From Spartobacteria bacterium (GTDB taxonomy: Bacteria > Verrucomicrobiota > Verrucomicrobiia > Chthoniobacterales > UBA6821), in the NCBI GenBank assembly GCA_947471565.1, contig CANIVT010000016.1, positions 1 to 51,203 on the forward strand: 51,203 bases of DNA. The letters run 5' to 3'. The notes below the pieces were generated by a model. The model was not told where the DNA came from and searched no databases. It saw nothing but the letters and a program-made list of their open reading frames with translations. The translations under genes were made by a program, and so were the position numbers. Below, one piece after another: positions 11,777 to 30,839 of this stretch (position 1 is its first letter; every line of letters starts with the position of its first letter).

Positions 11777-11794
11777 AGGAAGTGTGAAAAACTC

Positions 11795-11824: not shown

Positions 11825-11845
11825 AACCATTCAACATTTCTAACC

Positions 11846-12109: not shown

Positions 12110-12149
12110 ACCCAACCCAACCCCCAACCCAAAGAAAGGAACCAAGACC

Positions 12150-12353: not shown

Positions 12354-12373
12354 GGATTTCCTCCCCGAGGATA

Positions 12374-12407
12374 CGGGTGACGGAGCAATGCTCCGTCACC
12401 CGTTTTT
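12374..12407 (+). terminator. Rho-independent terminator after rpmB operon
   Basis: Bases 12374-12386 and 12390-12402 form a perfect 13-bp G+C-rich stem with a 3-base loop. Five T residues follow directly at 12403-12407, and further T-runs come after. It lies 21 bases after the 67-residue gene. Confidence 0.93.
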
Positions 12408-12486
12408 CGTTTTTGGGGATCATCTTAAGCGGGCTTGTTCGGGTTGGTTGTTTGACCGCGTCGGCTCGTGCTAGTAGCATCGCCGG

Positions 12487-13350: not shown

Positions 13351-13361
13351 GTTTCGTACCG

Positions 13362-13817: not shown

Positions 13818-13834
13818 TTCCGCAGGATCAAGAT

Positions 13835-13856
13835 GCTTCTTTACCCTTACAGAAGC
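13835..13856 (+). terminator. Weak hairpin after sufE
   Basis: gcttct (13835-13840) and agaagc (13851-13856) pair around a 10-base loop, 18 bases after the sufE stop. No T-run follows. The rest of the gap to 14098 shows nothing else I can identify. Confidence 0.3.
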
Positions 13857-14098
13857 GGTGAGTGGCACCCTGTCATCTCAGGAATCCGATACCACGCGGT
13901 TCTTTCGGCGGTTTTACAGCACGGTTCGAGAAAAACCATCCATCCATTCCTCTCCAAACCTGATGACGGGGTTCGGTTCCGGGCGGGCGATTAGCTATCC
14001 CTCGCGACCTTGTGTTCAAGTCCAATGATTTGATGGGGCGCTGGATTGCATGCAGGATCTTCGGCTTCCCCATCCGTTTCCACTCTTTTCAAATCCAA

Positions 14099-15859
14099 AT
14101 GAGATTCCCCAAAACCCTTCTTCTTATCGGCATGATACCGGTCTGCCCGGTTGTTTGCCAAAGCGCCGAGTTTTTCGTGGCTCCGGACGGATCGGATGCG
14201 AATCCCGGAACAATGTCCCAACCGTTCGCCTCCGTTACCGCCGCCCGTGACGCCCTGCGGAAACTCGGTCCGGGAGCGATTCCCGGATCAACGGTCTACC
14301 TGAGGGGCGGCATCTATCGGTTGGGTGAAAAGATCGTCCTGGGGCCTCAGGACTCGGGCACCGCAAGGGCAAAGGTCGTTTACAGGGCGTTCGGCGATGA
14401 ACGGCCCGTGTTAAGCGGAGGCGTGACCGTGGGAGGATGGACCCTCCACGACCCCGAACGTGGAATTTACTCCGCGAACGCCGGCAAGGATCTGTTCCGG
14501 CAGGTATACGTTGACGGCGTTCCCGCAATCAGGGCGCGTCACCCCAACGGGAACATCTACGGTCCGTTCCTGCGACTCGCGGGCGCCGACCCCGCGAACG
14601 GGAGGATCCTGCTGCCTGCCTCGGACTGGAAGGAGGCCTCCTCCCTTGGCGACATGCACGGGGTCGAACTCGTCCATAACCTCCACTGGATCCAGCAGAG
14701 GGCAAGGTCGGGAGGCGTCGAGAACCTCGGGGCAACCGTCGGTTTCAAGGTCGATTCCCCGGATGCAAAGACCTTCTTTCTGAAGCCGTCGGCATGGTTC
14801 GCAGGAGCCCCCTATTACCTCGAGAACTCCCTTGGCTTTGTCGATCAGGACCGAGAATGGTTCCACGATCAGGGAACCGGCCTCCTGTACCTCAAGTTCC
14901 CGCAGGGCTGTGACGTTGCGCGCGCAACGGTCGAAATCCCGAAACTCCCCACCCTGCTGGAACTGGACGGATCTTCCGGAAACCCGGTACACGACATCGA
15001 CTTCCGGGGGATCGGCTTTGAGCTCTCGAACTGGATCAGGCCATCGCTCTCCTCCCTAGCCGCATCGCAGTTCGCTCAGCCCTATGCGGGCCGCAGGACT
15101 TTCGAAACTAGCGACTATCCGCAGGGCATCGTCAAGGCCAGGCACGCCGACAGGATCGCCTTCCGAGGATGTAGGATCAGGAACGCCGGCGCCACTGGGA
15201 TCCAATTCTGGCAGCACGTTTGCGACTCGGACATCGAGGGTTGCGAGATCTTCGACATCGCCGCCAACGCGATCGAGATCGATGCCGAGTCACGGCGCAA
15301 CCCGCCACCGGGAGAGCAGAGCACCGGAGTGGCCGTCTGGAACAACAGGATCTACCGTGCCGGCCAGTCCTACACGAGCGGCGGAGGAATTCTGGCGGGA
15401 TTTGTCCGGCGCCTGACTGTCGATCACAACGAGATCCACGATATGCCGTATTCCGGAATCCAGATAGGCCAGCAACCCGGTGGCTACGTCGATTGCGGTT
15501 GCGGCGACAACAAGGTTCGGTACAACGATATTTACCGCTGCATGCTCCTTCACGACGACGGCGGGGCGGTTTACACCCTTGGCGGGCAGCAGCGCGGCAC
15601 CGAGATCCTGGAGAACCACATGCATGATCTCAAGCGCAGCAAATGGACGGGTGGGTTTCCGGTTGCCGGGATCTACCTGGACAATTTCACGCAATTCGTT
15701 CTTTGTGCCCGGAATGTGATTCGGAACTGCGACAAGAACCGCCCTTATGGCCAGTTTAACAAGGCAAAGCAAAACGTGTTCAGGGACAATGATTCCGGTC
15801 ATGAGTCCGTCGTTGCCAATGCTGGGGTGAAACCTGGATACGATCCCCGTGCCAGGTAA
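14099..15859 (+). CDS. Secreted right-handed beta-helix glycosidase candidate (GH141-like)
   Basis: 586 residues from the ATG at 14099. A signal peptide covers about residues 1-23 (cleavage near QSA-EFF). Then comes FFVAPDGSDANPGT and a first parallel beta-helix half. The motif QVYVDGVPAIRARHPNG is typical of GH141-type and related beta-helix enzymes. Residues from about 295 on contain repeated N-x-I/H-D turns (NRIYRAG, NEIHDMPYSGIQIG, HDDGGAVY, ENHMHDL) that build the right-handed helix. It probably cleaves a plant or algal polysaccharide outside the cytoplasm. Nearby fucosidases make an alpha-L-fucosidase or xylanase activity of GH141 type plausible but unproven. An upstream start at 14012 would bury the signal peptide. 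Confidence 0.75.
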   Translation: MRFPKTLLLIGMIPVCPVVCQSAEFFVAPDGSDANPGTMSQPFASVTAARDALRKLGPGAIPGSTVYLRGGIYRLGEKIVLGPQDSGTARAKVVYRAFGDERPVLSGGVTVGGWTLHDPERGIYSANAGKDLFRQVYVDGVPAIRARHPNGNIYGPFLRLAGADPANGRILLPASDWKEASSLGDMHGVELVHNLHWIQQRARSGGVENLGATVGFKVDSPDAKTFFLKPSAWFAGAPYYLENSLGFVDQDREWFHDQGTGLLYLKFPQGCDVARATVEIPKLPTLLELDGSSGNPVHDIDFRGIGFELSNWIRPSLSSLAASQFAQPYAGRRTFETSDYPQGIVKARHADRIAFRGCRIRNAGATGIQFWQHVCDSDIEGCEIFDIAANAIEIDAESRRNPPPGEQSTGVAVWNNRIYRAGQSYTSGGGILAGFVRRLTVDHNEIHDMPYSGIQIGQQPGGYVDCGCGDNKVRYNDIYRCMLLHDDGGAVYTLGGQQRGTEILENHMHDLKRSKWTGGFPVAGIYLDNFTQFVLCARNVIRNCDKNRPYGQFNKAKQNVFRDNDSGHESVVANAGVKPGYDPRAR

Positions 15860-16002: not shown

Positions 16003-18234
16003 ATGACCTTGACCCCCTCCCTGAGTTACTTCCTCTCGTTGCGAACATGCTTCTTGATCATTTGCGCGGGACTTGCGTCGGTGTCATCGTCTGTTGATCT
16101 CAGAGCCACCGAGGAGGATCCCTCGATCAAGGCATACCGTGAACGGTGTGAAACGATCATTCAGGGCAATCTGACGGCGTTGAAGTCCTGGGCGTCGGCC
16201 AACGCGGGGGCAACCAACCTTGGACACCCCGGAAGAAAGATGAGCATTTGGACCGCTGCGGCCGGTTTCAGTCGGGGAGGCCAGGACAAGGAAGCCCTAT
16301 CGGCGGCACGCCTCTTGTCCGCTTCCCTTATGGCAAGCAGGTTGAATCATCCTTTCGGCGGTGGAAACGACGGATGGCCGGCATGGGGCACCGCAGACAC
16401 GCGCCTTCGCTATGCCGATTTCATCGTATCCGATCCCGACCGATATGCACCGCCGGGATATCCCGCGAACTCCGCCTCAAAGGACGGAAAGTACTCGCTG
16501 GATGATCTTTTCAGGATTGTCCTGACGCAGTCCTATTACGCACCGATTGACTCGACTGGGAACCATTACCTCATGAATGCGACTGCACGCTTTCTTGCCG
16601 AAATCATCTATCCCTGGCAGGTCGTGAAGCCATTCAACAACAACAAGGCGGATCCCCTTGGGGCCAAGCATATCCTTGGTCGTGTCACCGGGTTGGAAGA
16701 GGGGGGGCCAGGCGAGTACGGATCGCCCAACTACGGAGCGGACAACTGGGCCGAGTTCCTGAGTCTGGCCCAGTTGACTCCGACAAACAACCCCCTCAAC
16801 GCCTCGGTGAAGCAGGCTTCTGAAGCTGCTTTCTGCGTGGCTTTGGCCGATGCCGCCGCCTTCTGGATGAACGGAAATCTGGCCATGCCGACCGGGCGCG
16901 GTTATCCCACCACCGGTGCGTGGGGAGTCGCCGCGGGGGATGTGCTCACCTGGGTTTATGCGGGAGGGGATTTCGGAAACCCGAAAATCAATGAGGTTGT
17001 CTGTGACACGGGCGAAAAAACCCTCGGTGTCCTTGGCGCCGTGGCAATGCTTGCCGGCTATTCTCCGCCTATCGGGCTTTTGCATGTTGCAGACCGGGTG
17101 CCTCGCGTCACGCAAGCCAACTTTGGAAACAACCGCCAGTATTCCTATATGACCCGGGATTACGGACACTCCTGCGAGAGTTATAAGGACGGCGCTCACG
17201 GTGGATGGCAGACCCACTGGGACTCACGCGTTGTCTGGACTAAGCCTTATAACCAGATTTATCAGGCGACCGCCTGGGTTTCCAATGTCGGGATTAATGC
17301 CAGCATGAGCAATGGGGTGCCCACCCCCCACCTGGAGGGTAAGGGAACGCCAATGTTTGTTGATCCCATCACGCTGCAGCCTTATCCCACCCATGGATCC
17401 GGTACATACGGGCAGAACTGCTATGAAGATTTCACGCAGTCACTGGACACAGTCCTTCATGTCTGCAACATCCCGCCAAAAATCAAGGCCGGGACGCCAG
17501 GCGGTACCATGCCGGTCCGCGGGTCACTCATTTACCTGCCGGTTCCTCAGAAGATGGATGAGCATGGAGTTCTGACCCAGGCCACCGATGACTATATTCC
17601 TCCGTTCATCGCCAAGGACGGGAAACGCGTTTATGTCGGTTTCAACAGCGTGTTCATCGCGTTCATTTCCTCCGCTCCGATCGCGACGCCAAAACCCACC
17701 GACATCATAGATAAAGGGAGGCGTCAATTTTTCCGCATCTACGGCGGGCCCTCCGCCGATCTTCCCGTTGATTCGGAGCACTACATCCAATATGCGGTGG
17801 CCGTCCAGACAGCATCGCCGGCGGACTATCCCGGTTCATCCCTTGCTGAAAAGTTCGCCGCTTTCACCGGGGCCATGGACAAGCTACCCGTTCCCAAGAT
17901 GTCCAAGGTGGACCAGCTTCACCCCGTCTGGCAGTTCAGTAACGGCAAGGTAACCCTCTCAAGTACTTATCAGGGAGATCAGAGACACGGAGGTAACGAT
18001 GGCAAGGGAGAGGACTGGATTGGGGGCCCGAATAACGAAAACCCACAGCAAATCGATTACTATCACTGGCCCCAGCTAAGGGAGTCATTTGTTGGCAGCA
18101 CTCAACCGATTCTTGACCAACCGCAGAAGGGAAACCTGACGATCAGCTACCCCGGTCACCCGACAGTCTGCGTCGACTTCAAGACGCAGATGATCATTAC
18201 TGAAGGTCCTGCAAATGAGCCCAGGGGCAACTGA
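16003..18234 (+). CDS. Secreted protein of an unnamed family, paralogue 1
   Basis: 743 residues from the ATG at 16003, with a signal peptide ending near residue 30-36. It is homologous along most of its length to two other proteins in this window. Shared features are EYGSPNYG (residues 238-245), a later GR-GYP-T segment followed by GAWGV, the strand-rich segment DGKRVYVGFNSVFIAFIS, LAEKFAAFTGAM, and a closing LTISYPGHPTVCVDFK strand pair. The pattern, a helical N-terminal half and a beta-rich C-terminal half, is that of alpha/alpha-toroid polysaccharide lyases and hydrolases, but I cannot match a named family. It is the most divergent of the three and lacks the HxHG motif. Confidence 0.7.
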   Translation: MTLTPSLSYFLSLRTCFLIICAGLASVSSSVDLRATEEDPSIKAYRERCETIIQGNLTALKSWASANAGATNLGHPGRKMSIWTAAAGFSRGGQDKEALSAARLLSASLMASRLNHPFGGGNDGWPAWGTADTRLRYADFIVSDPDRYAPPGYPANSASKDGKYSLDDLFRIVLTQSYYAPIDSTGNHYLMNATARFLAEIIYPWQVVKPFNNNKADPLGAKHILGRVTGLEEGGPGEYGSPNYGADNWAEFLSLAQLTPTNNPLNASVKQASEAAFCVALADAAAFWMNGNLAMPTGRGYPTTGAWGVAAGDVLTWVYAGGDFGNPKINEVVCDTGEKTLGVLGAVAMLAGYSPPIGLLHVADRVPRVTQANFGNNRQYSYMTRDYGHSCESYKDGAHGGWQTHWDSRVVWTKPYNQIYQATAWVSNVGINASMSNGVPTPHLEGKGTPMFVDPITLQPYPTHGSGTYGQNCYEDFTQSLDTVLHVCNIPPKIKAGTPGGTMPVRGSLIYLPVPQKMDEHGVLTQATDDYIPPFIAKDGKRVYVGFNSVFIAFISSAPIATPKPTDIIDKGRRQFFRIYGGPSADLPVDSEHYIQYAVAVQTASPADYPGSSLAEKFAAFTGAMDKLPVPKMSKVDQLHPVWQFSNGKVTLSSTYQGDQRHGGNDGKGEDWIGGPNNENPQQIDYYHWPQLRESFVGSTQPILDQPQKGNLTISYPGHPTVCVDFKTQMIITEGPANEPRGN

Positions 18235-18316
18235 TCGGCGAATATGATGACGAATCGGATTGATTGTTGATTGCAATCGTTCGGTGACCGGGAAAGTTGC
18301 GAGGGCGATATGGCTC

Positions 18317-19717
18317 TTAGCGCGAGACTGCAATGACATCCATAAAGGGTGATCGCCGGATAGCATCCAGAGGAATTTTCGCCTTGCCGTTTTTATAGGA
18401 GAAAGGCAAAAAATCCTTTCCTCCCAAAAGTCGTACGGATGAAGGGCGTTTTTCGATCTTCAGATCGACTGGTTCAGACATTTCCGGCACAACAAAAAGG
18501 TATAGTGTGTTTCCCTTCTGGGTGACAGGTGTGTTGGCCTGTCCCGAGTGATCGGCAGTATCTATCCCGACAACGGATTCACGATTGATCGCCATCCACT
18601 GGGCCGTTTCTTTCATCCTTTCGTAACATGATTCGGGCAAGGTGCCGTCCGGTCGTGGGGAAACATTCACAAGAAGGTTGCCATTCCATGCGCGGACTTT
18701 GGCGAGATTCGCCAGCATCCAGGACAAGGATCGGTACTCCTCGCGTTTATTGTAGCCCCATCCTCCCACGGACCATGGACAGCAGAGTTCCCACCATCCC
18801 GGAGGACGGACCGAAGGCATCGCCACCTCCGGGGTGGCAAAATCTCCCATTCCGTGCAGCCGCGGATTAATCACGATGGAGGGTTGCAGTTCGCGTATTC
18901 TCTCAATGGAAATCACGGGGCCACCCACCTGGCCATCGAACCATATAAGATCGATAGGCCCATACAGCGTGAGCAGTTCCTCGATCTGATTTCTCAGGTA
19001 AGCGCGGTAAGCCACATCCCAGCCATCGGGTTTTTTGGGTAGCACAACAGGATGGTGATTCATGTCGAAATCCGGTTTGCCTTGGTTAAAGGACATGTAC
19101 CCCCTGTTGTAATACCAATCTGGTGGAGAATAATACAAACCCACCTTCAAACCGTATTTCCGGCAGGCCTCCACAAAGGGGCGTACCAAATCCAGCCCCG
19201 GCAGGGATTTTCTCACGCCGATCTCCCCGAATGCGCTGGGCCACATTGCGTAGCCGTCATGGTGTTTTGTGGTGAGGACGGCATAGGTAAATCCTGCTTC
19301 TGCCGCCGCATGAATCCACTTTTCAGGATCATACTTCTCCGGATGAAAGCGATCAGCCAAGGCGTAGTAGGTGTTCGGCGTAACGGTTGCCTTTCCTGTG
19401 TTTGATCCGCAATTGGCCATCATCATCCAGGAAATATCCCCGCCTCCGTGCACCGAGGAGATTCCCCAGTGCAAAAAAAGGCCGAGCGCCGCTTGACCAA
19501 ACCACTGCGCATCCGGGTGCTTCGTGTGCTGTTTATTCTCGGTCGGTTCCACTTCGGTCATCCCTATTGCGGCATGCTGCACAAGAGCTTCCTGAGCATC
19601 GATTGTTGACACGCCGTCTGCAGAGAGATGTTTCGGGTTTGTGTCTGAGATCCCGTCCGCGGCATACGAACCGACAGGCTGGAGCAGCAATAAGGCAATG
19701 AGAAAATACTTAGTCAT
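18317..19717 (-). CDS. Alpha-L-fucosidase, GH29 (copy 1)
   Basis: 466 residues with a signal peptide (about 1-20, SYAADG). The GH29 (beta/alpha) barrel is clear: GLFLHWGISS, LTTKHHDGYAMWPS, LVRPFVEACRKYGLKVGLYY and the nucleophile strand IDLIWFDGQ with Asp261. It removes terminal alpha-L-fucose, probably in the periplasm. The gene converges on paralogue 1 and diverges from paralogue 2 across an A+T-rich spacer. Residues 20-65 form a linker before the barrel. A short C-terminal beta domain follows (PVDLKIEKRPSSVRLLGG). Confidence 0.92.
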   Translation of the reverse strand: MTKYFLIALLLLQPVGSYAADGISDTNPKHLSADGVSTIDAQEALVQHAAIGMTEVEPTENKQHTKHPDAQWFGQAALGLFLHWGISSVHGGGDISWMMMANCGSNTGKATVTPNTYYALADRFHPEKYDPEKWIHAAAEAGFTYAVLTTKHHDGYAMWPSAFGEIGVRKSLPGLDLVRPFVEACRKYGLKVGLYYSPPDWYYNRGYMSFNQGKPDFDMNHHPVVLPKKPDGWDVAYRAYLRNQIEELLTLYGPIDLIWFDGQVGGPVISIERIRELQPSIVINPRLHGMGDFATPEVAMPSVRPPGWWELCCPWSVGGWGYNKREEYRSLSWMLANLAKVRAWNGNLLVNVSPRPDGTLPESCYERMKETAQWMAINRESVVGIDTADHSGQANTPVTQKGNTLYLFVVPEMSEPVDLKIEKRPSSVRLLGGKDFLPFSYKNGKAKIPLDAIRRSPFMDVIAVSR

Positions 19718-19863
19718 GATTTTATGGATGATAAAAACATAAATATTCTTATAGAGTGCTGTAATGATGTTAAGTTTTGATTTGGTAGAGCTGTTACAAC
19801 TGGTGCTGATGATTGGAGTCGCAATTTCTTATTGCTTCATTTTGGTAATGCAATCAGTTTCTT

Positions 19864-19895
19864 TTGAAAACTTAAATAATCGGGAGTTTTATAAT
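19864..19895 (+). promoter_or_regulatory. Candidate promoter for paralogue 2 in the divergent A+T-rich spacer
   Basis: ttgaaa (19864-19869) and a perfect tataat (19890-19895) lie upstream of the start at 19931, with a rather long 20-base spacer. A ribosome-binding site aagga sits about 11 bases before the ATG. The whole spacer 19718-19930 is far richer in A+T than its flanks. Confidence 0.35.
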
Positions 19896-19930
19896 TATAG
19901 CTTTGAGTAAAAAACAAGGAACCCTAGAAA

Positions 19931-22636
19931 ATGATTATTAAAATTCAATACGTTTTTCGTTTTTCGATACTCACTGTGTTGACCTCTGTTTCGGGCCTTG
20001 CCGCCGCCGAAGATTACCAATCAAAAATCGAAGAGCGGGCCCAGCAGACATTTGAAGCCGTTGATGTGGCTCAGAAAACAAAAAATACCCAGAGCGTTGG
20101 CTATCCGTGGCTGGCCCTCTGGCACTTTCGCCACGGTGAGAATACCGAGGGGTTGAGGGTTTTGTACTCGTTGCTTGATGTCATAAAGCCTGAGAACCAG
20201 GGACATCCGTTTGTTTCCTACGGTTTGGCCCACCTTTGGCTTCATTACAGTCATCTTTATGACAAGGCGCACGCCGAGAAGTGGCTGGAACTCACCCGTG
20301 CCCGCGGGAGTTATTCCTATAATCTCGATTCCTATCCCAATAATTACTCGACGACGAACCTGCGCATGGTGGGATCGACAACTTGGTATCTGAGCACCTT
20401 GGGTTTCGGACTCGACAAGCTACCCCCCAACTATCCACCAAAAGAGGATCCCACCCGGGTTGATTTCCTCCGCCAGGCGCTGACGAAGATCGGTCGCACC
20501 GGAATGCCGGAGTTCGCTTCGCGACCTTATGGTGGGATGGACTCCCTGCCGCTGCTATGCTTGGCTGAACAGACCGCCGACCCGGCACTGGCCAAGCAGG
20601 CCTCGGTGGTCTTCGAGACTTATCTGGCCACCGCCGCCGCCACCTGGCTCCAAGGTCATTGGCCTGTGGCAACCCAGCGTAGCTACACCGACACAATCAG
20701 TCAGCACGCCACCAGCGGGGTTAATCTCCTCTGGATGTACTTCGGCGGACTGCCAGGCGATGCAAGCCAAAACGGCATGGCTGCCGCCGCGATGGCCTAT
20801 CGGCCGCCAAACGAGATAGTATCCATAGCCAACCGCCGCGACCGCGCCTACGCCACAACCATGCGGGCCTCGTGGGTCAAGGACAACGACCCCGACATCC
20901 ATCTCAACCCGCCTGGGTTTCTCCAGTACACTTGGAGTGACCGCACTTACGCGGTGTACAGCCAGATGACCGCTCCCGGCACCCGCCTGCAGGAGCTGCA
21001 GATCTACGGTAACGGAGTGATGTGGCTTGATCCGAGCGGAGCCACCAGTTGCCTTTGGGTGACAGTGCCCAGCGGCGGCACCAGCCACACGCATGGTCAA
21101 CCTGAGGCTGGGGCCGAATATGTCCAGAACGAGGGTGCCTTACTGCTGGTTGCCAAGCCGCTGCCGGGAGAAGCCTTTCCTTGGATCAAGGGCAATGTGC
21201 CGGCCAACCATCAGGCCATGATCAATGACTCGGCCGCCGACGGGCGCATCTATCTGGCCTATCCGGGTGTTCTGATTGCGATCACCGCGCCGAAGCCTTT
21301 TACCTGGGATCCGGAGCTGCTGCTGCAGTTTGAGCAGGTCAAGACCGACAAGCGCCGCAAGCCCGGCGATAAGCCCACGGATGGTTTCTATCGGCTCAAA
21401 GAGGGGCCCTTGGCCGTGGCCATCGATACGATGGCGCCGGACCATGCCAAGGGAAATACTCCTGCTGAAAAGCTGGCCTGGTTCCGCGAGCAGGTGCGAA
21501 ACCGTACTCATCTGAGCGCCAAAGACGGCTCCGCAACCTACCGAGCACTGAACGGCCGCGAACTGCAGCGCACAATTGGTGAGTTGCCGCGTGTGGATGG
21601 AGTTCCAATCGACATCGCCGGCCAACCGTTCATTTCCAACCCCTGGATGTTCCAGCCCTACCAGCAGGATCCAAGGCAACCTTGCGAACTGACCGTCAGC
21701 ATCGACGGCCGCACGCGAATTTACGATCTTAAGGATTACACGATACGCACTCACAACGGGCCGGCACGCCCGACGCAACTCATAGCCTCTCCAGAGGCCG
21801 ATGCCGTTGCCCTGCGTTGGACGCCTGGGCCCGGCGAGCCGACAGGTTATATCATCCGCCGTGCCATCGGAGATGGTCCCTTCGAGGAGGTCGGCACGAC
21901 GACTGATCCTGCATGGAGAGATAACGGAGCCCACGCCGGTACCGTCCATCGATACGAGGTTGCCGCCCGTAACGCAGGCGGTACAAGCCCCGGCAGCGTG
22001 TCGGTGGAGGTGACCCCGGGAGCGGGCATTCCGTCGAATCCCGCGGGCCTGGCTGCTGTTTCTGGCGACGGAAAGATAGCATTGAGCTGGCATCCAAGCG
22101 CAGGTGCCACCGGCTATCGTGTCTGGCGTTCCACTGTTTCGGGCGGCCCCTACACCCTTCTCACTTCCGTCTCAGAGTCCGAATTTTCGGATAAATCCGC
22201 CGAGAACTACACCAGCTACTGGTACGCCGTGAGCGCGCTTGCTCCTTCCGGCGAGAGCGGTCGTTCGGCGGAGGCTTTGGGCTTGCCCGCTCCGATTCCC
22301 CCGGCGCCACCTTCCGGAGTGACCTGGGAGCGGGCCGAGCAGACTCTGGGGGGGGTGACTCAAACCGGTATTCGCGTTCACTGGCAACCCGTGTCCGGGG
22401 CTGTTCGTTATAATGTGCGGGTGGCTGCTAGTCAGCGGGGTTTGCCTATCAACCGGGCCATCGCCCGGGGAGAAACCACCGCATTCCTTCCTGATTCCGT
22501 TTTGGGCGGCTCATCGTGGATCACCGTCTCTGCGGTGAACGGGGGAGGGCAAAGCCCTGGTTCCGAGGCGATCCAAATTCCAGGCATTGGAGGACGGCAA
22601 CCTGACAAAGGGGCCGGCCCGAAAACCGTTGAATGA
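19931..22636 (+). CDS. Secreted protein of an unnamed family with three FN3 domains, paralogue 2
   Basis: 901 residues with a signal peptide (about 1-26, GLAAAED). The family core spans residues 27-610. It contains EFASRPYGG (194-202), TQRSYTDT, HTHG (386-389), DGRIYLAYPGVLIAI, KPFTWDPE, AEKLAWFREQ and a final RIYDLKDYTIR. Residues about 612-885 are three fibronectin type III domains, each with the W and Y-x-V core pattern (for example VALRWTPGPGEPTGYIIRRA). FN3 units are common spacers in secreted carbohydrate enzymes. It is divergent from the GH29 gene. Activity is unknown; a role in degrading the same glycan is inferred from context. Confidence 0.75.
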   Translation: MIIKIQYVFRFSILTVLTSVSGLAAAEDYQSKIEERAQQTFEAVDVAQKTKNTQSVGYPWLALWHFRHGENTEGLRVLYSLLDVIKPENQGHPFVSYGLAHLWLHYSHLYDKAHAEKWLELTRARGSYSYNLDSYPNNYSTTNLRMVGSTTWYLSTLGFGLDKLPPNYPPKEDPTRVDFLRQALTKIGRTGMPEFASRPYGGMDSLPLLCLAEQTADPALAKQASVVFETYLATAAATWLQGHWPVATQRSYTDTISQHATSGVNLLWMYFGGLPGDASQNGMAAAAMAYRPPNEIVSIANRRDRAYATTMRASWVKDNDPDIHLNPPGFLQYTWSDRTYAVYSQMTAPGTRLQELQIYGNGVMWLDPSGATSCLWVTVPSGGTSHTHGQPEAGAEYVQNEGALLLVAKPLPGEAFPWIKGNVPANHQAMINDSAADGRIYLAYPGVLIAITAPKPFTWDPELLLQFEQVKTDKRRKPGDKPTDGFYRLKEGPLAVAIDTMAPDHAKGNTPAEKLAWFREQVRNRTHLSAKDGSATYRALNGRELQRTIGELPRVDGVPIDIAGQPFISNPWMFQPYQQDPRQPCELTVSIDGRTRIYDLKDYTIRTHNGPARPTQLIASPEADAVALRWTPGPGEPTGYIIRRAIGDGPFEEVGTTTDPAWRDNGAHAGTVHRYEVAARNAGGTSPGSVSVEVTPGAGIPSNPAGLAAVSGDGKIALSWHPSAGATGYRVWRSTVSGGPYTLLTSVSESEFSDKSAENYTSYWYAVSALAPSGESGRSAEALGLPAPIPPAPPSGVTWERAEQTLGGVTQTGIRVHWQPVSGAVRYNVRVAASQRGLPINRAIARGETTAFLPDSVLGGSSWITVSAVNGGGQSPGSEAIQIPGIGGRQPDKGAGPKTVE

Positions 22637-22665
22637 TACTCCCCAGAAGGAGAGGGCAAACGGGA

Positions 22666-22775
22666 TCAGGATTTCGGAGTGAGGCGGGCAACAAAGCCCC
22701 CTTTGCCACGTATTGTGAGGGGAATGCTGTCCTTGGCGCGGGCCTTGAAGGTCTTGTGGGACCATGTGTGTGGTG
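22666..22775 (-). pseudogene. GH97 C-terminal remnant
   Basis: Read on the minus strand, this stretch encodes TWSHKTFKARAKDSIPLT, then IRGKGGFVARLTPKS and a stop. That is the C-terminal end of a GH97 enzyme, aligning with SWSRKNYSVGAKDSIPLT, then IRGKGGFVARLTPLP of the intact gene ending at 24471. Bases 22682-22737 are identical to 24487-24542 over 56 positions, then diverge. Nothing upstream on the minus strand continues the gene, because the intact GH29 gene ends at 22803. It is a decayed fragment of a second GH97 copy. Confidence 0.85.
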
Positions 22776-22802
22776 AGCTTCGAGTCCTAGAATTGAATCT
22801 CA

Positions 22803-24320
22803 TCACTTCGGGAGGTCAGGGCAAAGGAAGACGGCTATGGAACGGAGTTCGACCGGCCGGGCCGCTGATTTCACACAACGGAATCGGATCCTGTTGGTGG
22901 TGACCGGCTCGATCCTGTCGATTTTCTTGTGTCCGACGGTTTCGAACCCGGGATTGGGATTGAACGGATCCTTCGTGTCAAAGCGGTTCGCGGGGACGAG
23001 CGGCTGCCACCGTCCATTCACCATTGCCTCCAAAGTGTAACGGGCGATCTTTTGTCCGTGGGACAAATTTTCCATGAGGATGACAGTATTGACCGGTGTC
23101 GGGTTACCCCAGGACACTTCGGCGATATCGCTCGGGGCAATGCCTGTTGAGGAAGCGACAGGGCTGGCAAAGCGGGACCGGATTTCATCCCCTAACCGCT
23201 TGGCGGCCGTCGTCAGATATTCTGGCACAAGGCCTGTTGCATCAGGGGGCAGGTTGATCAGAACGTTCGCACCCAAGCCGACGGTCCGGTAATAAAGGTT
23301 CACATGATCGGCCAGCGTCCGCATACGGGGCTCGCGGGGGTGGCCGGGGGAATGCCAGAACCACCCGCCGGCATAAAGGGCATTGTGGGTCGGGCATTCG
23401 CGGTTCCGCCAGAATTTCCCGAACGGCGTTCCCGAAAGCACGTCACCCTCAAGTAGGCCATAATCATTTGCCAGCGTGCCATCGGACCCGCTCACAGTCG
23501 GCCGGCTCCAGATGCTACCATCGACCGTGTTCACGGCATTCCACATGGGATAGACTACGCGACCGTCCTCATTGCCGGGCACCCATGTGTCCGGCCCCAG
23601 CATCATGCAATGGGGCTGCAACCGGCGCATCACTTCGGTCACCGCCCGCCATGTACGGTCGGTTCCGTTCCAGTGGTCGCACCAGATATAGGAAATCTCC
23701 CCGTAGTTGCTCAGCAATTCTGTCATTTGCTCCACTTGAACTTTTTCGAAGCGCTCCCGGAATGTTTCGCCGCCTGATTGAAACGCGTTGGCCACGGAAG
23801 CGCTCCATGCCGGGCCCCAGCTGTGGGCGAAGTCGGCCTCCCCCTTGTAGCCGCGCATGGTCTCATGCGCATCAAACATCGCGGTGTGGTAGAATCCGAC
23901 TTTGAGCCCGTGCTTGCGGCAAGCCTCGACAAACTCGCGGACGATGTCCCCCTTGCCGTTCTTGTAGCGACTGTTTGCGATGCTGTATTCGGTCGTCTTG
24001 GTCGACCACAGGCAAAAGCCGCTTTCGTGCCTTGCCGTGAGCACAGCATATTTTGCCCCGAGGTTCTTTGCGGCGGTGACCCACTGCTCGGCATCAAGTT
24101 TGTCGGGATTGAACATCGCTGGTGACGCCCGGCCGTTGCCGTGTTCCTCACCGGTGAAGATGTTCAGGTCAAAGTGAACGAAAGCCCCGACTTCCAGATC
24201 CATGAAGGCGAGTTGTTCCGGGGTCGGCCGTGCCAGTGTTCTTCCCGAAGCAAATACAATGGAAGACATTCCAAAGACCAGCGGAATGGCAATTGATAGC
24301 AGGAGAAAATCTTTGCTCAT
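22803..24320 (-). CDS. Alpha-L-fucosidase, GH29 (copy 2, GH29-B-like)
   Basis: 505 residues with a signal peptide (about 1-25). The GH29 barrel shows VGAFVHFDLNIFTG, VLTARHESGFCLW (in place of the KHHDG of copy 1), VEACRKHGLKVGFYHT and the nucleophile strand ISYIWCDHW with Asp215. The C-terminal region, about residues 385-505, looks like a discoidin-type carbohydrate-binding beta-sandwich (SWGNPTPVNTVILMENL). The overall pattern fits the linkage-selective GH29-B group; this is family knowledge. It lies 150 bases downstream of the GH97 gene on the same strand, probably one transcript. Confidence 0.88.
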   Translation of the reverse strand: MSKDFLLLSIAIPLVFGMSSIVFASGRTLARPTPEQLAFMDLEVGAFVHFDLNIFTGEEHGNGRASPAMFNPDKLDAEQWVTAAKNLGAKYAVLTARHESGFCLWSTKTTEYSIANSRYKNGKGDIVREFVEACRKHGLKVGFYHTAMFDAHETMRGYKGEADFAHSWGPAWSASVANAFQSGGETFRERFEKVQVEQMTELLSNYGEISYIWCDHWNGTDRTWRAVTEVMRRLQPHCMMLGPDTWVPGNEDGRVVYPMWNAVNTVDGSIWSRPTVSGSDGTLANDYGLLEGDVLSGTPFGKFWRNRECPTHNALYAGGWFWHSPGHPREPRMRTLADHVNLYYRTVGLGANVLINLPPDATGLVPEYLTTAAKRLGDEIRSRFASPVASSTGIAPSDIAEVSWGNPTPVNTVILMENLSHGQKIARYTLEAMVNGRWQPLVPANRFDTKDPFNPNPGFETVGHKKIDRIEPVTTNRIRFRCVKSAARPVELRSIAVFLCPDLPK

Positions 24321-24470
24321 AAACCCGTGGGCGTCATCTTCACCCGGTTCATTACTCCGCGGCGTTTCTCCGGCAGAAATGGCAGATAATTAGGCAATAC
24401 CGCAAACTGAATAGAGATGCAGGTAAGGCAAAATCAGGAGAGCACCTTTCCTGGCCGACACGCAATTCCA

Positions 24471-26345
24471 TCAGGGAAGCGGCGTAAGGCGGGCAACAAA
24501 GCCCCCTTTGCCACGTATTGTGAGGGGAATGCTGTCCTTGGCTCCGACGCTATAGTTCTTACGCGACCACGAATCGTTCCGATCCGGGGCGTCCGCCCAT
24601 TGGTCGACGGAGTAAGTTCCCTGCCCTAGGAACCCCAACGGCAGGTTGAGTTCGGCCGTTTCACCGGAATTGATCACCCCGATGAACCATTCCTTACCGC
24701 TACGCCGAGCAAAAGCAGCCACGGATCCCACTTTACTGCCGGGGAGAACCACGGTCTCGTCCCATACGGAGGGGATGGACTTAAGCAAATCGATGCTCTC
24801 GTTCCCCAAGTAGTGATCGGGTCGGTCGGCATAGCATAGGAAGGGAGAGGTGAACACAATAGCTTGGGCCAGTTCCCGCGCCCAGGTGTAACCGTGAAGT
24901 TCATCGGGATTGAAGACGGTGGGGGTGTAGTCGCCGTGGCCTGCCAAATAGCGGTTGAATGGCAAGACGGCATCATGCTCGGGTGGCAGGATGCGATGAT
25001 AGCGGTTGATGTGCCATTCGTGTCCGCGGACGGCCTCGCGGCTGATTTCATTGGGCCAGGTTCGATCCCGCCCTGAGGGTTTCACAGCCCCGTGAAAATC
25101 GACAAGAAGATGCAGTGCAGCGGCTTCGCGGAGCACATCATCGTACCAGTTAACCCAATCGAGACGGGCTGCGGGAGGAAAATCAATTTTCAGGCCGGCA
25201 ACTCCGGCCCGCTTGGCATTGTCAAAATAGGTTTTCCGGTCACTTGGATCGAAAACCTCCTTGGAATGAACCCAAATCACCACTTTTACGTTCTGAGTAT
25301 TTGCGTAATCGACCACGCCCTTGAGGCACTTCCATTGGTCTTTGTCCCCGTCTTTCCAATTCCTCCACCCTTCGTCAATCAGGTAATATTCAAAGCCCAG
25401 TTGTTTCGCCCAATCCACCCATTTTCTCTGCTCGGAGTACTTTGGAGCTCCACTGCTCCACCATTGCCAGACGGTGCGCCCTGGCTGGATCCAATCCGCG
25501 AGGGCGAGCTCTTTGGACGCCGGCGGGCATAGGTTATGATGGATATCGCTGTTGACGAGACCATTGAGATCGGGGGATACCATCGTCACCCGCCAAGGGG
25601 AAATAATGTCACCCGTGGCGTTCCACCCCTCCTTGTCGGCGTGGAAAAGGGCGGAAAGCCCCCCTTGCGGCGTCACTTTGAGTGCCATATCGCTGTAGTT
25701 CACCAGGTTGGCCTCGGATACCACGGCGTACCCGATGCCATCCGGGAGTTCCACGGTGACGGGACTGCCCACCACCTTCTCGGGAGTGAGTTCCGAAACC
25801 TTGGCCTTGGCAAAGAGTCCCTCGTAACAGCCGATGTTATCCTGGGACCAGACGGTTGCGTTGCTTGGCAGTATCCATGCGGATGATTCCCCGTTCACCC
25901 TGCGTGTTCCGTTACCCGGCACAACGTAACGGTACGCTGCTCCGTCGTCGAACAAGCGGAACTCCAGGGTCCAAGGAGTATTGCTGGGGCCGCCGGTCAC
26001 AGGAATGGTTGCCACCTTGCAATAATTGACCGCGGTGGAGTGGACTCCCCGGGTTGGATAAGTCTCGTTGATTTCCGAGAAGGCGGGTTGTCCCAGCTTT
26101 GCGTTCGTCCCGAGGTCGTTGCCGTCGACGATGATCCCAATGGGGGAGGGGAGGAGCACGGTTTCCCCTCTGTTCTTGAGGGAGTAAGTCAGGCATCCGG
26201 CATCATTGAGCGAGATCGCAGCGGAAACCTGCCCGTTTGGACTCTTAACGACAATATTGGGAGCCTGCGCCGCCATTAGAGAAAACACCGAACATAGCAG
26301 CAGGCAGATCACTGCAATGCAGGTGAGTACGATTTTCGTTTTCAT
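24471..26345 (-). CDS. GH97 glycoside hydrolase (retaining type)
   Basis: 624 residues with a signal peptide (about 1-26, LMAAQAP). The N-terminal beta-super-sandwich begins IVVKSPNGQVSAAISL. The barrel contains WQWWSSGAPKY, FEYYLIDEGWRNW, VKVVIWVHSKE, and GLKIDF with Asp388. An Asp at this place matches the nucleophile of retaining GH97 alpha-galactosidases rather than inverting SusB-type glucosidases. The segments VDFHGAVKPSG and GHEWHINRYH follow. The C-terminal beta domain ends IRGKGGFVARLTPLP. It is divergent from paralogue 3 over an A+T-rich spacer and lies upstream of GH29 copy 2. Confidence 0.9.
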   Translation of the reverse strand: MKTKIVLTCIAVICLLLCSVFSLMAAQAPNIVVKSPNGQVSAAISLNDAGCLTYSLKNRGETVLLPSPIGIIVDGNDLGTNAKLGQPAFSEINETYPTRGVHSTAVNYCKVATIPVTGGPSNTPWTLEFRLFDDGAAYRYVVPGNGTRRVNGESSAWILPSNATVWSQDNIGCYEGLFAKAKVSELTPEKVVGSPVTVELPDGIGYAVVSEANLVNYSDMALKVTPQGGLSALFHADKEGWNATGDIISPWRVTMVSPDLNGLVNSDIHHNLCPPASKELALADWIQPGRTVWQWWSSGAPKYSEQRKWVDWAKQLGFEYYLIDEGWRNWKDGDKDQWKCLKGVVDYANTQNVKVVIWVHSKEVFDPSDRKTYFDNAKRAGVAGLKIDFPPAARLDWVNWYDDVLREAAALHLLVDFHGAVKPSGRDRTWPNEISREAVRGHEWHINRYHRILPPEHDAVLPFNRYLAGHGDYTPTVFNPDELHGYTWARELAQAIVFTSPFLCYADRPDHYLGNESIDLLKSIPSVWDETVVLPGSKVGSVAAFARRSGKEWFIGVINSGETAELNLPLGFLGQGTYSVDQWADAPDRNDSWSRKNYSVGAKDSIPLTIRGKGGFVARLTPLP

Positions 26346-26548
26346 ATTTATTGGATTCTATTAAACCTCAAAAAAAAGTACATTCTAATTGAGTGTATGA
26401 TGGTAGATATAAGCCGCTAGTTTTCTCAAAAATCGACATATTCACCTCCATTGCCACACTCCCCCGAATCTCTTTTTGAGGTATTGAACTCTCCGAATCA
26501 AAGAAAATCCCTCTGTCCTGATAACGGTTTGAAAAATACTCCCTGAAA

Positions 26549-28414
26549 ATGAATGTTTTAGTCCTTAAAAATTTCTCTCAACTTGTTGTAGTCCTCTTTT
26601 TGTTATCAATTATTTCCTCTTTGGTGGGGGCTGCCCCCCCATCGGTTCCTGAAACGAAAGCGGCGGATAGTGATGTATCGTCTCCGGCACCATCCACAGC
26701 CACCCCTCAATCTCTCAATACCTTTGGAGAGCGACGCAAGTGGATCATAGATACTGTCGTAGCTAACCCCGGTTCCTATGGGTCGTCAGACAACCCTTTC
26801 TTTGTTGCCGAAGCCTGCTTCCTTGCTGGGAAAATTGACGAAGGACGAGAAGTTGCCCGGAAAGGTTACCTTTATTGGAGTTCCAAAGATCCCCTTAAGG
26901 TACGCGCGACGGATTTCTTCCGACTGTGGCCGGCTATGGATTGTTACGTGCGCTACAAGCAATCCCTGGATGAGGAAAGCAAGGCCGCCTTCAAGAAGTT
27001 TATGACCGGCATTCGGTGCTACAGCTATGCCTATACCGCCAATCTGAGCATGGTGATGTGGACAACCCGGCTCTTGGGCGAGCAGGAATGGGGCTTTGAC
27101 GCGTTTGTCCCCATGGCGCCAAAAGACACGACTTCCCATTACAAAGCCGACCCTGAGATTCCCATGAAGAAACGCCTGATGGGAATGATCAATGCCCAAG
27201 CCATGACCGGCGGTGAGGAATATGCCTCACGTCCCTACGGATCGGCTAATCTGGCACCTATCCTAACTCTTGCCCAACTTGCAAGCGATCCGGAACTCAA
27301 ACTTCATGCGCGAATCGCGCACGAAACCTCGCTTGCCCGTTACGCATCAACCTGGCTCGAGGGAGCCATGGTCATCACGAGTCGTCGGAGTTATCCTGAT
27401 CTTTGGAACGACCCCATGGGTGTGGCCACCTGGTTCTGGGTCTTTTTCGGCGGTGAACTGCAGCCGGAGGTTCAAAGTCACGCGCTGGAAGCCGCGGTGC
27501 TGGGCGAGCCTGCACCTAGGCTTATTGAGTTTGCAGCCACCAACCGGGTCAAGCCATACAGTGTCTTTAGCCGATTTCAGGAGGGTTCCTCCGGACGACA
27601 GATTTCTTGGATCGAAAGCCGTTACGGACTCTTTAGCGAATCCTTTCACACGAAGCCGGGTCCCTTTGGCCAGACTTATCCGTTCGGCGTTCGCTGGATC
27701 GTTCCCAACGACCCGCACTTCACGGTCCTGTGGTTTTCCGTGCCGTCGTTGGACGAGAATAATACCGGAAGCCATCCGCACGGTTTCTCAGTTCGGAACC
27801 AGACGACGTTCCAACACGAGGACTCACTGTTATACGTGGTGAACACCGAGGCGGAGCAGTCCGCTAAATATCCGTATGGTCTGGCATTCGTTCCCGGAGG
27901 TGCGTCGGCGGTGATCGACGAGTCCAAGACCGCAGGGAGGATTTTTCTTCACTACCCGGGAGTGTTCATCTCATTCCAATGCACCAAGCCGTTCTCTTGG
28001 GATCCAACGGTTCCGATAAAGAGCCCCAGCGGCAAACCCCGCGCCGGCGACTCCGAGTTCCGGGTGCCGGGGCCGACTTTTGCCGCCGCCATTGAAACCG
28101 CGCCAGGAGAGGAGTTTCCCGGAGCATCTCCAGAGGAACGGCTAAAACTCTTTCGGGAAGCCATTCTTGCCAAAAGCAGGCTGAGTCTTTCAGAAACCAA
28201 ATCCCTGACTGGCAGTTACACCAACAGCCATGGGGTAGCGATTGCCCGGGTTTTCAAAGGAGCGGCGCAGGTCAATGGCAAGGGCGTGGATTTTGACAAT
28301 TGGCCAGTAATTGAGAGTCCCTGGGTCACTCAACCAACCAAAAGCGCTCCTCTCACCGTCACTGATGGGACGACGAAGCGCACGTATGATTTTCAGATTT
28401 GGACTATCAAGTAA
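26549..28414 (+). CDS. Secreted protein of an unnamed family, paralogue 3
   Basis: 621 residues with a signal peptide (about 1-28, SSLVGAAPP) and a Pro/Ser/Thr-rich linker to about residue 60. It is the shortest family member and gives the clearest core: EYASRPYG (224-231), SRRSYPDLW, HPHG (409-412), GRIFLHYPGVFISF, KPFSWDP, SPEERLKLFRE, and a closing KRTYDFQIWTIK. It aligns with paralogue 2 throughout except for the latter's FN3 tail. It is followed 91 bases later by the GH95 gene on the same strand. Conserved EYASRPYG and HxHG motifs are candidates for active-site or metal-binding residues; function is unknown. Confidence 0.75.
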   Translation: MNVLVLKNFSQLVVVLFLLSIISSLVGAAPPSVPETKAADSDVSSPAPSTATPQSLNTFGERRKWIIDTVVANPGSYGSSDNPFFVAEACFLAGKIDEGREVARKGYLYWSSKDPLKVRATDFFRLWPAMDCYVRYKQSLDEESKAAFKKFMTGIRCYSYAYTANLSMVMWTTRLLGEQEWGFDAFVPMAPKDTTSHYKADPEIPMKKRLMGMINAQAMTGGEEYASRPYGSANLAPILTLAQLASDPELKLHARIAHETSLARYASTWLEGAMVITSRRSYPDLWNDPMGVATWFWVFFGGELQPEVQSHALEAAVLGEPAPRLIEFAATNRVKPYSVFSRFQEGSSGRQISWIESRYGLFSESFHTKPGPFGQTYPFGVRWIVPNDPHFTVLWFSVPSLDENNTGSHPHGFSVRNQTTFQHEDSLLYVVNTEAEQSAKYPYGLAFVPGGASAVIDESKTAGRIFLHYPGVFISFQCTKPFSWDPTVPIKSPSGKPRAGDSEFRVPGPTFAAAIETAPGEEFPGASPEERLKLFREAILAKSRLSLSETKSLTGSYTNSHGVAIARVFKGAAQVNGKGVDFDNWPVIESPWVTQPTKSAPLTVTDGTTKRTYDFQIWTIK

Positions 28415-28505: not shown

Positions 28506-30839
28506 ATGAAACGCTCACTTCTCCCCTTGTTCTGGCTTTTATTCACATGCCTTGGATCTGCGAACACCACAGTCCTTGAGTCCATTAATTGGCCGCGGTT
28601 CATGGCGCGGCACGACATGGTTTGGGAACGCCTGCCGACGAGATGGACAGAGGCGCCGCATTTCGGCAACGCCATGCTCGGGTCGATGTTCTTTCAACAA
28701 AAGAATGAGTTAATATTACAAGTTTTCCGCGCGGACGTGCAGGAGCACCGCGATAACTCCTTCGGTTGGACAGCCTATAGCCGACCACGCCTGACCATTG
28801 GTGCGTTCGAGTTGAAGCCCGTGGGTAAAATCCAGGGCGGCAACCTGCGCACGGATCTGTGGAACGCGGAGTTGACGGGAACGATCACGACTGACCAGGG
28901 GGAAATCCGGCTACGCCATTTCGTTCACGCAGAAGATATGGCAATCGTGACGGAAATCTGGACCACCCCCGGTGAAGCCGCCTGCCAGTGGTCCTGGCAA
29001 CCCGCACCCGCGCAGAGCGTACGCAAAGGGTATCCTACAAATTCCGCGGAGCTTGCCGAGTACGTCAAAAAATACGGGGAAGCCGATGCTAAAAAACTGA
29101 AAGCCCCGGAGCCGAATCCACCCGGAAGACTTGAAAGCAAAGGAACGGTGAATGTTTGGACCCAGGATCTGCTCTATGGAGGCCAATATGCCACCGCCTG
29201 GACGGAACTCGACAAAGGGAACGGCCACCGCATCCACCTTGCCACGATCGCCAACAGCTACCCTGAAAAAATAGCCCGCAAGGAGGCGCTTAAAACGATC
29301 GGCGAATTGGGCGCATGCGATCTGGCAAGTGCCGAGGCGTCCCATCGGGATTGGTGGCACCGATATTATCAGCAGAGTTTTGTCACTCTTCCGGAAACCC
29401 GGCTGGAAACACTCTATTGGAACAGCATCTTCCGCTACGGATGCACCGCACGCACCGGGCGTGCATTCGTCGATTGCCCCGGTATCTGGTTCCAAGGTGG
29501 CCAATGGCCTTACATCACCACGGATTACAACATCCAGACCGCGCTCTGGGGCGTTTATGCAGCCAACCGCCTGGATATCGGCGGCGAACTGATGGAAACC
29601 CTTCACCGCAGCCGCGCAGCTCTGGCAAGCAACGTGAGGCCCGTCGAGTGGCAGAATGACTCCGCCTATCTGAGTGTGGCCACCCAGCCGGATATGATCT
29701 CTCCGCGCGATCAGGACATGCGTTACTGGAATCTCATGGGCTGCTTACCGTGGGCTCTTCACAACTGCTGGTGGCAATACCGTTACTCGATGGATGACGA
29801 CATGCTGAGGGAAAAGTTTTTTCCACTCTTGCGCCGATCCGTGAATTTCTACCTGCATCTGCTCCGGGAGGAGAACGGTAAGTTGAGACTGCCGCCCACG
29901 TATTCGCCTGAATCGGGCGTTTTTGAGGATTGCAATTTCGATTTATCGCTCCTGCGCTGGGGGTGCCGGACGCTGCTCTGGAGCGCGGCGCGCCTTCACA
30001 TCGACGATCCCCTCATTCCCAAGTGGAAGGACGTGCTTGAGCGCTTGGTTGATTTTCCAGCCGACGAAAACGGTTTTCGCCTTGGTAGCAACAAACCTGC
30101 TGAGGCAAACCATCGCCACGGTTCTCACCTGCTCATGATCTACCCGCTTTATCTGGTTAATATCGACCAACCGGGTACCGCCGAAGTCCTGCGTGAATCC
30201 GTCGAACGTTTCAGCCGTACCAAGCATCTGCCTGCCATGGTGGCCACTCACAGCGTCCCTGCGGCCACGGCCATCGGCGATGGCAACCTTGCGCTCGATG
30301 GCCTTCATAAACAGATCGCCAATCTCTTTCCCAACGGCATGTGGTTCAATCCTTGCTGCCTTGAGTCCTCCCTCTCCGCGGCCAATGGCATCCAGACAAT
30401 GCTAATCCAGAGCTGGGGTGATACCCTGCGCATCTTTCCGGCCGTTCCATCGGCATGGCCAGACGTCGCCTTCCACAATCTGCGAGCAGAAGGGGCTTTT
30501 TTGGTCAGCGGCGTTCGAAAAGGGGGCAAAACCGAATGGGTGCGCATCAAGAGCTTGGCAGGTGAACCGTGCCGAGTGAAAACGGACCTTCCCCCACCTG
30601 TTCGCTGCAGTCTTACGAAAGATCTCCTCACACCAAACGCCAGCGGAGCCTATGAATTGAATCTACGGAAGGGGGAGGAAGCTATGCTCCACTCAGGCAC
30701 CAGCATGCCGGAAACAAGAATCACCGAAGTTCCTGAGGAGCCAAGTCTGTGCCGCAGCTTTGGTCTCAAAGCCAAAAAGGAACAAGACAAGGAACAGAGG
30801 AATCAAAACGGGAGTGGCGTTAAAAATGCAGTTTTTTGA
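28506..30839 (+). CDS. GH95-family alpha-L-fucosidase/galactosidase
   Basis: 777 residues with a signal peptide (about 1-19). The N-terminal beta region contains WTEAPHFGNAMLGSMFF, a diverged form of the GH95 W-x-E-A-x-P-x-GNG opening. The (alpha/alpha) barrel carries YSPESG (Glu469), HRHGSHLLMIYPLY (His536-His541) and LRIFPAVPSAWPD. The C-terminal AFLVSGVRKGGKTEWVRIKS completes the family pattern. It is an inverting exo-enzyme expected to remove alpha-1,2-linked L-fucose or L-galactose. The last 35 residues are charged and without homology. The stop codon lies inside an 11-bp palindrome. Confidence 0.78.
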   Translation: MKRSLLPLFWLLFTCLGSANTTVLESINWPRFMARHDMVWERLPTRWTEAPHFGNAMLGSMFFQQKNELILQVFRADVQEHRDNSFGWTAYSRPRLTIGAFELKPVGKIQGGNLRTDLWNAELTGTITTDQGEIRLRHFVHAEDMAIVTEIWTTPGEAACQWSWQPAPAQSVRKGYPTNSAELAEYVKKYGEADAKKLKAPEPNPPGRLESKGTVNVWTQDLLYGGQYATAWTELDKGNGHRIHLATIANSYPEKIARKEALKTIGELGACDLASAEASHRDWWHRYYQQSFVTLPETRLETLYWNSIFRYGCTARTGRAFVDCPGIWFQGGQWPYITTDYNIQTALWGVYAANRLDIGGELMETLHRSRAALASNVRPVEWQNDSAYLSVATQPDMISPRDQDMRYWNLMGCLPWALHNCWWQYRYSMDDDMLREKFFPLLRRSVNFYLHLLREENGKLRLPPTYSPESGVFEDCNFDLSLLRWGCRTLLWSAARLHIDDPLIPKWKDVLERLVDFPADENGFRLGSNKPAEANHRHGSHLLMIYPLYLVNIDQPGTAEVLRESVERFSRTKHLPAMVATHSVPAATAIGDGNLALDGLHKQIANLFPNGMWFNPCCLESSLSAANGIQTMLIQSWGDTLRIFPAVPSAWPDVAFHNLRAEGAFLVSGVRKGGKTEWVRIKSLAGEPCRVKTDLPPPVRCSLTKDLLTPNASGAYELNLRKGEEAMLHSGTSMPETRITEVPEEPSLCRSFGLKAKKEQDKEQRNQNGSGVKNAVF

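Follow-up and report, generated by a model that had tools for sequence, protein, structure and literature searches.

The window, by which we mean the whole 51,203-nucleotide stretch of the Spartobacteria bacterium contig that was analysed, carries three genes for related proteins set among GH29, GH95, GH97 and GH141-like genes, with Pfam matches at each neighbour:

14012..15859, + strand, GH141-like beta-helix protein (Pfam GH141_M, an insertion domain, 1.6e-10; Beta_helix 2.8e-10)
16003..18234, + strand, P0001, family member of 743 aa with a signal-like N-terminus (by eye); signature residues N187 (then H188), E238, Y244 and R299
18317..19717, - strand, GH29 alpha-L-fucosidase (PF01120, 7e-68)
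19931..22636, + strand, P0002, family member of 901 aa; signature residues N143, E194, Y200 and R250
22803..24320, - strand, GH29-like protein (PF01120, 2e-34)
24471..26345, - strand, GH97 (PF10566, 8.1e-56)
26549..28414, + strand, P0003, family member of 621 aa with a signal-like N-terminus (by eye); signature residues N165, E224, Y230 and R280
27041..27043, + strand, P0003 Asn165 codon, putative carboxylate neutraliser by analogy with the PL table in PMC12088678
27218..27220, + strand, P0003 Glu224 codon, Glu in 88/88 rows of the family alignment
27236..27238, + strand, P0003 Tyr230 codon, putative acid/base
27386..27388, + strand, P0003 Arg280 codon, Arg in 88/88 rows, with a putative role in the site
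28506..30839, + strand, GH95 (PF22124, 1.9e-23)
31296..32564, - strand, MFS sugar-transporter-like protein (PF00083, 6.3e-29)

A preliminary description of this DNA had presented the three proteins as secreted paralogues of an unnamed family interleaved with fucosidases, and both their open reading frames and their homology were borne out, with BLASTP E values of 7e-51 (P0002/P0003), 5e-17 (P0001/P0003) and 1e-11 (P0001/P0002) and pairwise alignment scores 23-74 SD over those of shuffled sequences. The signal-like N-termini of P0001 and P0003 agree with secretion. The shared motifs are also present, EY/FAS..YG corresponding to E224-Y230 and R-S/G-Y to R280-Y282 of P0003, and HxHG is found at residues 386-389 and 409-412 in P0002 and P0003, the equivalent in P0001 reading PTHG. 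In P0002 the family domain extends to approximately residue 608 and is followed by C-terminal fn3-type domains (Pfam fn3, 1.1e-8). An in-frame TTG further upstream of the P0001 reading frame would move its start to 15928.

Three additional family copies, with GH29 genes alongside, lie on another contig (C18) of the same genome, making six in all. Most of these group with sequences from other genomes in the tree, and the six are not recent duplicates. An L-fucose catabolic gene set is apparent in the genome, and its own GH88 sits on a different contig from the family genes. Specialisation of this organism on sulfated fucan is unlikely, there being one sulfatase match only.

The family was present in 56 of 388 genomes, spanning much of the window organism's phylum, and rhizobia, Thioclava and Subdoligranulum carry further members on plasmids, the annotated ones under the name 'hypothetical protein'; in some relatives the family domain is fused into giant repeat proteins. 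A scan of viral contigs gave no match to the family, and the sole match of a genome-wide pattern scan with P0003, Paenibacillus protein L059, was rejected as weak, local and unconfirmed by profile comparison. The family domain had no Pfam-A or NCBIfam profile match over curated cut-offs (the fn3 match of P0002 falls outside it) and no match to PDB chains by sequence or profile, a search that a relative by fold only could escape. No description of the family was found in the literature searched, which mostly lay outside subscription papers. Within Pfam, NCBIfam and PDB sequences the family was indeed unnamed.

Conservation was counted over 88 aligned members, 86 of which are complete at all four signature columns. 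Every one of these 86 rows carries an Asn-Glu-Tyr-Arg quartet, and no other equally invariant set occurs in the alignment; column by column, Asn is found in 86/86 covered rows and Glu, Tyr and Arg each in 88/88. The quartet is also kept in all five plasmid homologues from Pseudomonadota and Bacillota. The most conserved stretch of the family is the EY..S..YG segment, with E and Y in all 88 rows, in agreement with the preliminary description. The HxHG motif, which that description had put with this segment around a conserved pocket, fared differently: H411 (P0003 numbering) is found in 9/88 rows only and the H409 column is unconserved, and on these counts the motif was rejected as catalytic. 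Since four polar residues are invariant despite a mean column identity of approximately 20%, an active site is suggested.

The spacing of the quartet resembles that of known lyases. Median distances in the family are 61 residues from Asn to Tyr (with outliers) and 50 from Tyr to Arg, while PL8 proteins of the window organism's phylum, conserving N255, H305, Y314 and R368, give 59 and 54. In published alpha/alpha-toroid polysaccharide lyases the distance from the catalytic Asn to the Tyr is 53-63 residues (PMC12088678, PMC11848413), a range that includes the family median, the likeness being one of layout only. His directly follows the Asn in 63/88 rows; an Asn-His pair likewise occurs in PL39 (PMC12088678), and titles of PL5 mutants name N171L, H172A and Y226F, which is Asn-His and then Tyr. 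Unlike the known toroid lyases, the family has no invariant His among its 88 rows, neither in the beta domain nor ahead of the Tyr.

Structures were predicted for the three window sequences only, with low confidence (pLDDT 46 for the full model; pLDDT 60 and pTM 0.67 for the N-terminal model), and show helices first and strands after. By VIA-align, the full model matched PL8, PL17, PL12, PL15, PL39, PL33, PL40 and PL21 at Z 8-10, scores which, at an rmsd of mostly 8-10 Å, may reflect a common helical arrangement. The N-terminal model matched toroid carbohydrate enzymes including PL5, GH76, GH9, GH116 and GH88, and beta-D-glucuronate dehydratase. Foldseek gave no match at E <= 0.001 with either model. 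The N-terminal part of the family is probably an alpha/alpha-toroid, as the preliminary description had predicted, going by low-confidence model matches to toroid carbohydrate enzymes, many lyases included.

Profile comparison by HHalign aligned the toroid with PF05426 in register (N-H on N-H and Y on Y) at an E value of approximately 0.07, with a score over those of all 60 block-shuffles. Comparison with PL8 gave E values of 0.06-0.5 with the best alignment out of register, and that with Hepar_II_III gave no significant link, its score being beaten by 4 of 60 shuffles; neither was better than the PF05426 link. No significant link was found to GH29, GH78, GH95 or GH127.

Of the known enzymes nearest to the family, PL8 (hyaluronate, chondroitin AC and xanthan lyases) shares the conserved Asn, Tyr and Arg at similar spacing and the match to the low-confidence full model, but its His lies nine residues ahead of the Tyr whereas the family has a Glu six ahead, and both a sequence-profile link and a Pfam Lyase_8 match are absent. 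The PL5/PF05426 alginate lyases share N-H followed by a Tyr approximately 55 residues on, together with the in-register alignment and the N-terminal model match, but PF05426 proteins are mostly shorter (many open reading frames of approximately 390-450 aa), the alignment E value is approximately 0.07 only, and an Arg of the aligned PF05426 set corresponds to the Glu of the family. The toroid plus beta-sandwich lyases (PL12, PL15, PL17, PL21, PL33, PL35 and PL39) share the predicted two-domain plan and the Asn...Tyr layout, with N-H as in PL39, but their beta-domain His is without an invariant counterpart in the family and the Hepar_II_III link is not significant.

The genes beside relatives in other phyla bear on function. 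GH88, an unsaturated-uronyl hydrolase, is encoded directly downstream of the family gene in Sinorhizobium and Subdoligranulum (by Pfam) and in Rhizobium and Thioclava (by annotation); because the rhizobial loci are near-identical, this link rests on approximately three independent lineages. The rhizobial operons comprise the family gene, GH88, the nearby GH28 and an ABC transporter, and kduI/kduD lie near the gene in Thioclava. No GH88 match adjoining a family gene was seen in the window organism's phylum, as judged by coordinates. GH88 was commoner in genomes with the family (33/56 versus 94/332; Fisher 2e-5), although genome size and kinship confound this comparison. The expected association with fucosidases did not hold in other genomes: at 29 loci elsewhere the genes included no GH29, GH95, GH97 or GH141 relative, ruling it out as a general rule, and a fucose-specific role is not general for the family.

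That these are non-catalytic secreted glycan-binding proteins, as the fn3 domains of P0002 and the giant repeat fusions might suggest, is very improbable given the invariant quartet, and the rhizobial members, which have no obvious signal peptide (by eye), lie in operons with GH88 and GH28. An alpha/alpha-toroid glycoside hydrolase, with Glu224 as catalytic acid and acting on a fucosylated glycan in the same pathway as GH29, GH95 and GH97, would suit the fucosidases and other hydrolases beside the copies in the window and on C18, the toroid hydrolases matching the N-terminal model (GH76, GH9, GH116 and GH88) and a further set of relatives (f17) adjoining GH127, GH78 and GH51. The usual mechanism employs two carboxylates and only E224 is invariant here (Asp247 79/88, Asp581 62/88), and the Asn-Tyr-Arg set with GH88/kduI/kduD neighbours suits a lyase better, making a hydrolase unlikely. 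A uronyl C5-epimerase or dehydratase that shares the fold and has a comparable Asn/Tyr site, altering the glycan without cutting it, has a precedent in the DS-epi1 epimerase, which has the toroid-lyase fold and part of the apparatus (PMC11848413), and in the match to beta-D-glucuronate dehydratase; it is a distinctly improbable reading, as the adjoining GH88, and the nearby kduI/kduD in Thioclava, are users of lyase products.

Of the earlier proposal of a new lyase or hydrolase, it is therefore the lyase that the signature and the neighbours in other phyla favour. The three proteins are probably secreted members of a large, unnamed polysaccharide-lyase-like family performing beta-elimination on uronic-acid glycans. 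More tentatively, this may be a widespread new lyase family of several phyla with its own Asn-Glu-Tyr-Arg set lacking an invariant His, subfamilies of which would act on different uronic-acid glycans and which, in the window organism, would make the first cut in a fucosylated uronic-acid-bearing glycan.

By analogy we infer enzymatic activity, residue roles and substrate alike. In an N-terminal helical toroid followed by a C-terminal beta-sandwich, Asn165 would neutralise the uronic acid carboxylate at the +1 subsite and Tyr230 would serve as acid/base at C5 and O4, as in toroid lyases, with Glu224 and Arg280 shaping or charging the site. Beta-elimination would then break the chain to leave an unsaturated uronyl end which, in rhizobia, Thioclava and Subdoligranulum, would be handed to the GH88 enzyme of the adjoining gene. 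The copies of the window organism probably open a fucosylated glycan that bears uronic acid, for trimming by the GH29, GH95, GH97 and GH141-like enzymes.

If this is correct, many 'hypothetical proteins' of plant-associated rhizobia, the window phylum and some Bacillota would gain one testable function, and a lyase type with a different catalytic set would be added to the known toroid lyases. Through its four-residue signature the lyase claim lends itself directly to testing by mutation, and the rhizobial operons are a convenient genetic system for a first test of function. PL42 (FoRham1) is a gum arabic Rha-GlcA lyase, whereas among PDB sequences nothing matches the family; GlcA-bearing plant gums of this kind are conceivable substrates for the f17 relatives beside GH78, GH127 and GH51.

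The preliminary description had placed three paralogous open reading frames in the window, and their coordinates were borne out:

16003-18234: P0001, secreted-type family protein
19931-22636: P0002, secreted-type family protein
26549-28414: P0003, secreted-type family protein, whose residue numbering is used here

Their paralogy was confirmed by BLASTP (7e-51, 5e-17 and 1e-11, with scores far exceeding those of shuffled sequences), the motifs listed as common to the three were present, and the surroundings proved as rich in fucosidases as claimed, with two GH29 genes, GH97, GH95 and a GH141-like protein recognised by Pfam. All three proteins have, by eye, signal peptide-like N-termini. A polysaccharide biosynthesis cluster (36989-48737) follows the degradation genes and includes UDP-galactopyranose mutase, glycosyltransferases, an O-antigen-type ligase and a flippase; within it, 38978-40867 had no Pfam match.

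A profile search of 388 genomes of the phylum detected the family in 56; 98 matching ORFs were gathered, of which 88 were put into an alignment, and the two main subfamilies can be aligned for the greater part of their length (hhalign E 2.8e-59). In no member tested did the family domain match Pfam, NCBIfam or PDB sequences; the family is unnamed by these resources, and a recent CAZy family may already include it. Two other genomes from the order carry the domain inside giant proteins of more than 2,000 aa (L026:1-8319 and 8316-14972; L027:1705-9590, the latter gene divided between two frames), which also carry fn3-like and repeat regions; the adjacent gene in L026 encodes a second giant with a region resembling, by eye, heparinase-type lyases.

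E224, Y230 and R280 were present in 88/88 alignment rows and N165 in all 86 rows reaching that column, with His directly following N165 in 63/88; the next-best conserved polar residues were R62 (80/88), Q422 (80/88) and D247 (79/88). The HxHG motif stressed previously is not a family feature, as His occurs at 411 in just 9/88 rows. Asn-to-Tyr spacing has a median of 61 and Tyr-to-Arg of 50, with outliers; in a set of 22 PL8 proteins from this phylum, N, H, Y and R are conserved at spacings of 59 (N-Y) and 54 (Y-R). In published lyases the Asn-to-Tyr spacing is 53-63, with the pair at N238/Y291 in PL33 (PMC11848413), and at N192/Y246 in PL35, N240/Y294 in PL12, N186/Y239 in PL39, N201/Y258 in PL17, N183/Y242 in PL8 and N236/Y299 in PL23 (PMC12088678). 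The family differs from known toroid lyases in having an invariant Glu and no invariant His. A hydrolase using a two-carboxylate mechanism is disfavoured because just one carboxylate is invariant, whereas two would be needed.

Structures were predicted from the window sequences for full-length P0003 (pLDDT 46, poor; about 12 helices, then strands) and for its N-terminal part alone (pLDDT 60, pTM 0.67). Foldseek gave no match at E <= 0.001 with either model. By VIA-align, the full model matched chiefly PL8, PL17, PL12, PL15, PL39, PL33, PL40 and PL21, and also GH139, GH81 and GH95, at Z 8-10 and rmsd up to 10, where such Z may mean a common arrangement; the N-terminal model matched chiefly toroid carbohydrate enzymes (GH76, PL17, PL5, GH154, GH88, GH9, GH116). 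When the toroid part was compared with PF05426 proteins by HHalign, the E value was 0.07 and the score exceeded those of 60/60 block-shuffled controls; the N-H pairs and the Tyr residues of the two sides fell in register, unprompted. Comparisons with PL8, Hepar_II_III and hydrolases yielded no usable alignment. These low-confidence models suggest that the N-terminal fold is likely an alpha/alpha toroid.

Searching plasmids by tblastn with a subfamily II member returned 131 records, 115 from Rhizobium, 11 from Sinorhizobium and one each from Thioclava, Subdoligranulum, Pararhizobium, Ciceribacter and Allorhizobium. Five full homologues, each carrying N-H, E, Y and R, matched the family HMM (E 1e-69 to 1e-88); annotated homologues are labelled 'hypothetical protein'. 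GH88 lies directly downstream of the family gene in Rhizobium and Thioclava (annotation) and in Sinorhizobium and Subdoligranulum (Pfam), about three independent lineages, with GH28 next in rhizobia and kduI and kduD close by in Thioclava; in R. etli CIAT 652 the downstream gene, equal in size to this GH88 gene, is annotated 'putative glycosyl hydrolase'. This adjacency is the strongest functional clue, because GH88 enzymes take off the unsaturated uronic acids that lyases make. No GH88 match was seen beside a family gene in the window's phylum, judged from match coordinates; GH88 was commoner in genomes of the phylum with the family (33/56 vs 94/332, Fisher 2e-5, genome size and kinship uncontrolled).

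We consider it fairly probable that these proteins form a polysaccharide lyase family that has so far gone unrecognised and shares a fold relationship with known lyases. If the mechanism is like that of toroid lyases, Asn would neutralise the uronate carboxylate, Tyr would take the C5 proton and/or protonate the leaving oxygen, and Arg and Glu would position the substrate or tune Tyr.

The co-occurrence with fucosidases expected in other genomes did not hold, no GH29, GH95, GH97 or GH141 relative being found in 29 loci, and contexts vary; it thus seems that the subfamilies act on different substrates and that the link to fucose is particular to the window organism. In one group of relatives (f17) the neighbours include GH127, GH78, GH51, DUF6807 and TonB receptors, and the family genes often directly adjoin a BNR-type beta-propeller gene, which was not found in the organism's own loci. 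At L061-L069 and L150, most family genes adjoin this gene of about 337 aa (e.g. L062:6619-7629), a secreted BNR/Asp-box, VPS10/Ycf48-like protein (13 aligned). Sulfatases made up 6/64 neighbouring proteins of distant members (L146-L164), a hint that these lineages may act on sulfated substrates.

Distribution within the genus is patchy, the family being missing from most of the sister genomes (G001-G015), many of them >90% complete. Three additional members, C18a, C18b and C18c, lie together on another contig, C18, of the window's own genome (2.28 Mb, 46 contigs). In the tree, P0003 groups with domains of giant repeat proteins, P0002 with C18c and C18a with sequences of other genomes, while C18b falls in a separate clade; from this scatter the six copies appear to be old paralogues, possibly with different roles. 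The copies on this second contig adjoin GH29 genes, sugar transporters and genes for an SDR, an amidohydrolase, an enolase-type dehydratase and an FAH hydrolase, the last four of which fit non-phosphorylating L-fucose breakdown, the SDR identity and pathway assignment being our own reading. The contig (L023, L024) is a dense fucose cluster, with at least five GH29-type genes, GH16, a SASA esterase, SSS- and MFS-like transporters and, likely, an L-fucose catabolic gene set.
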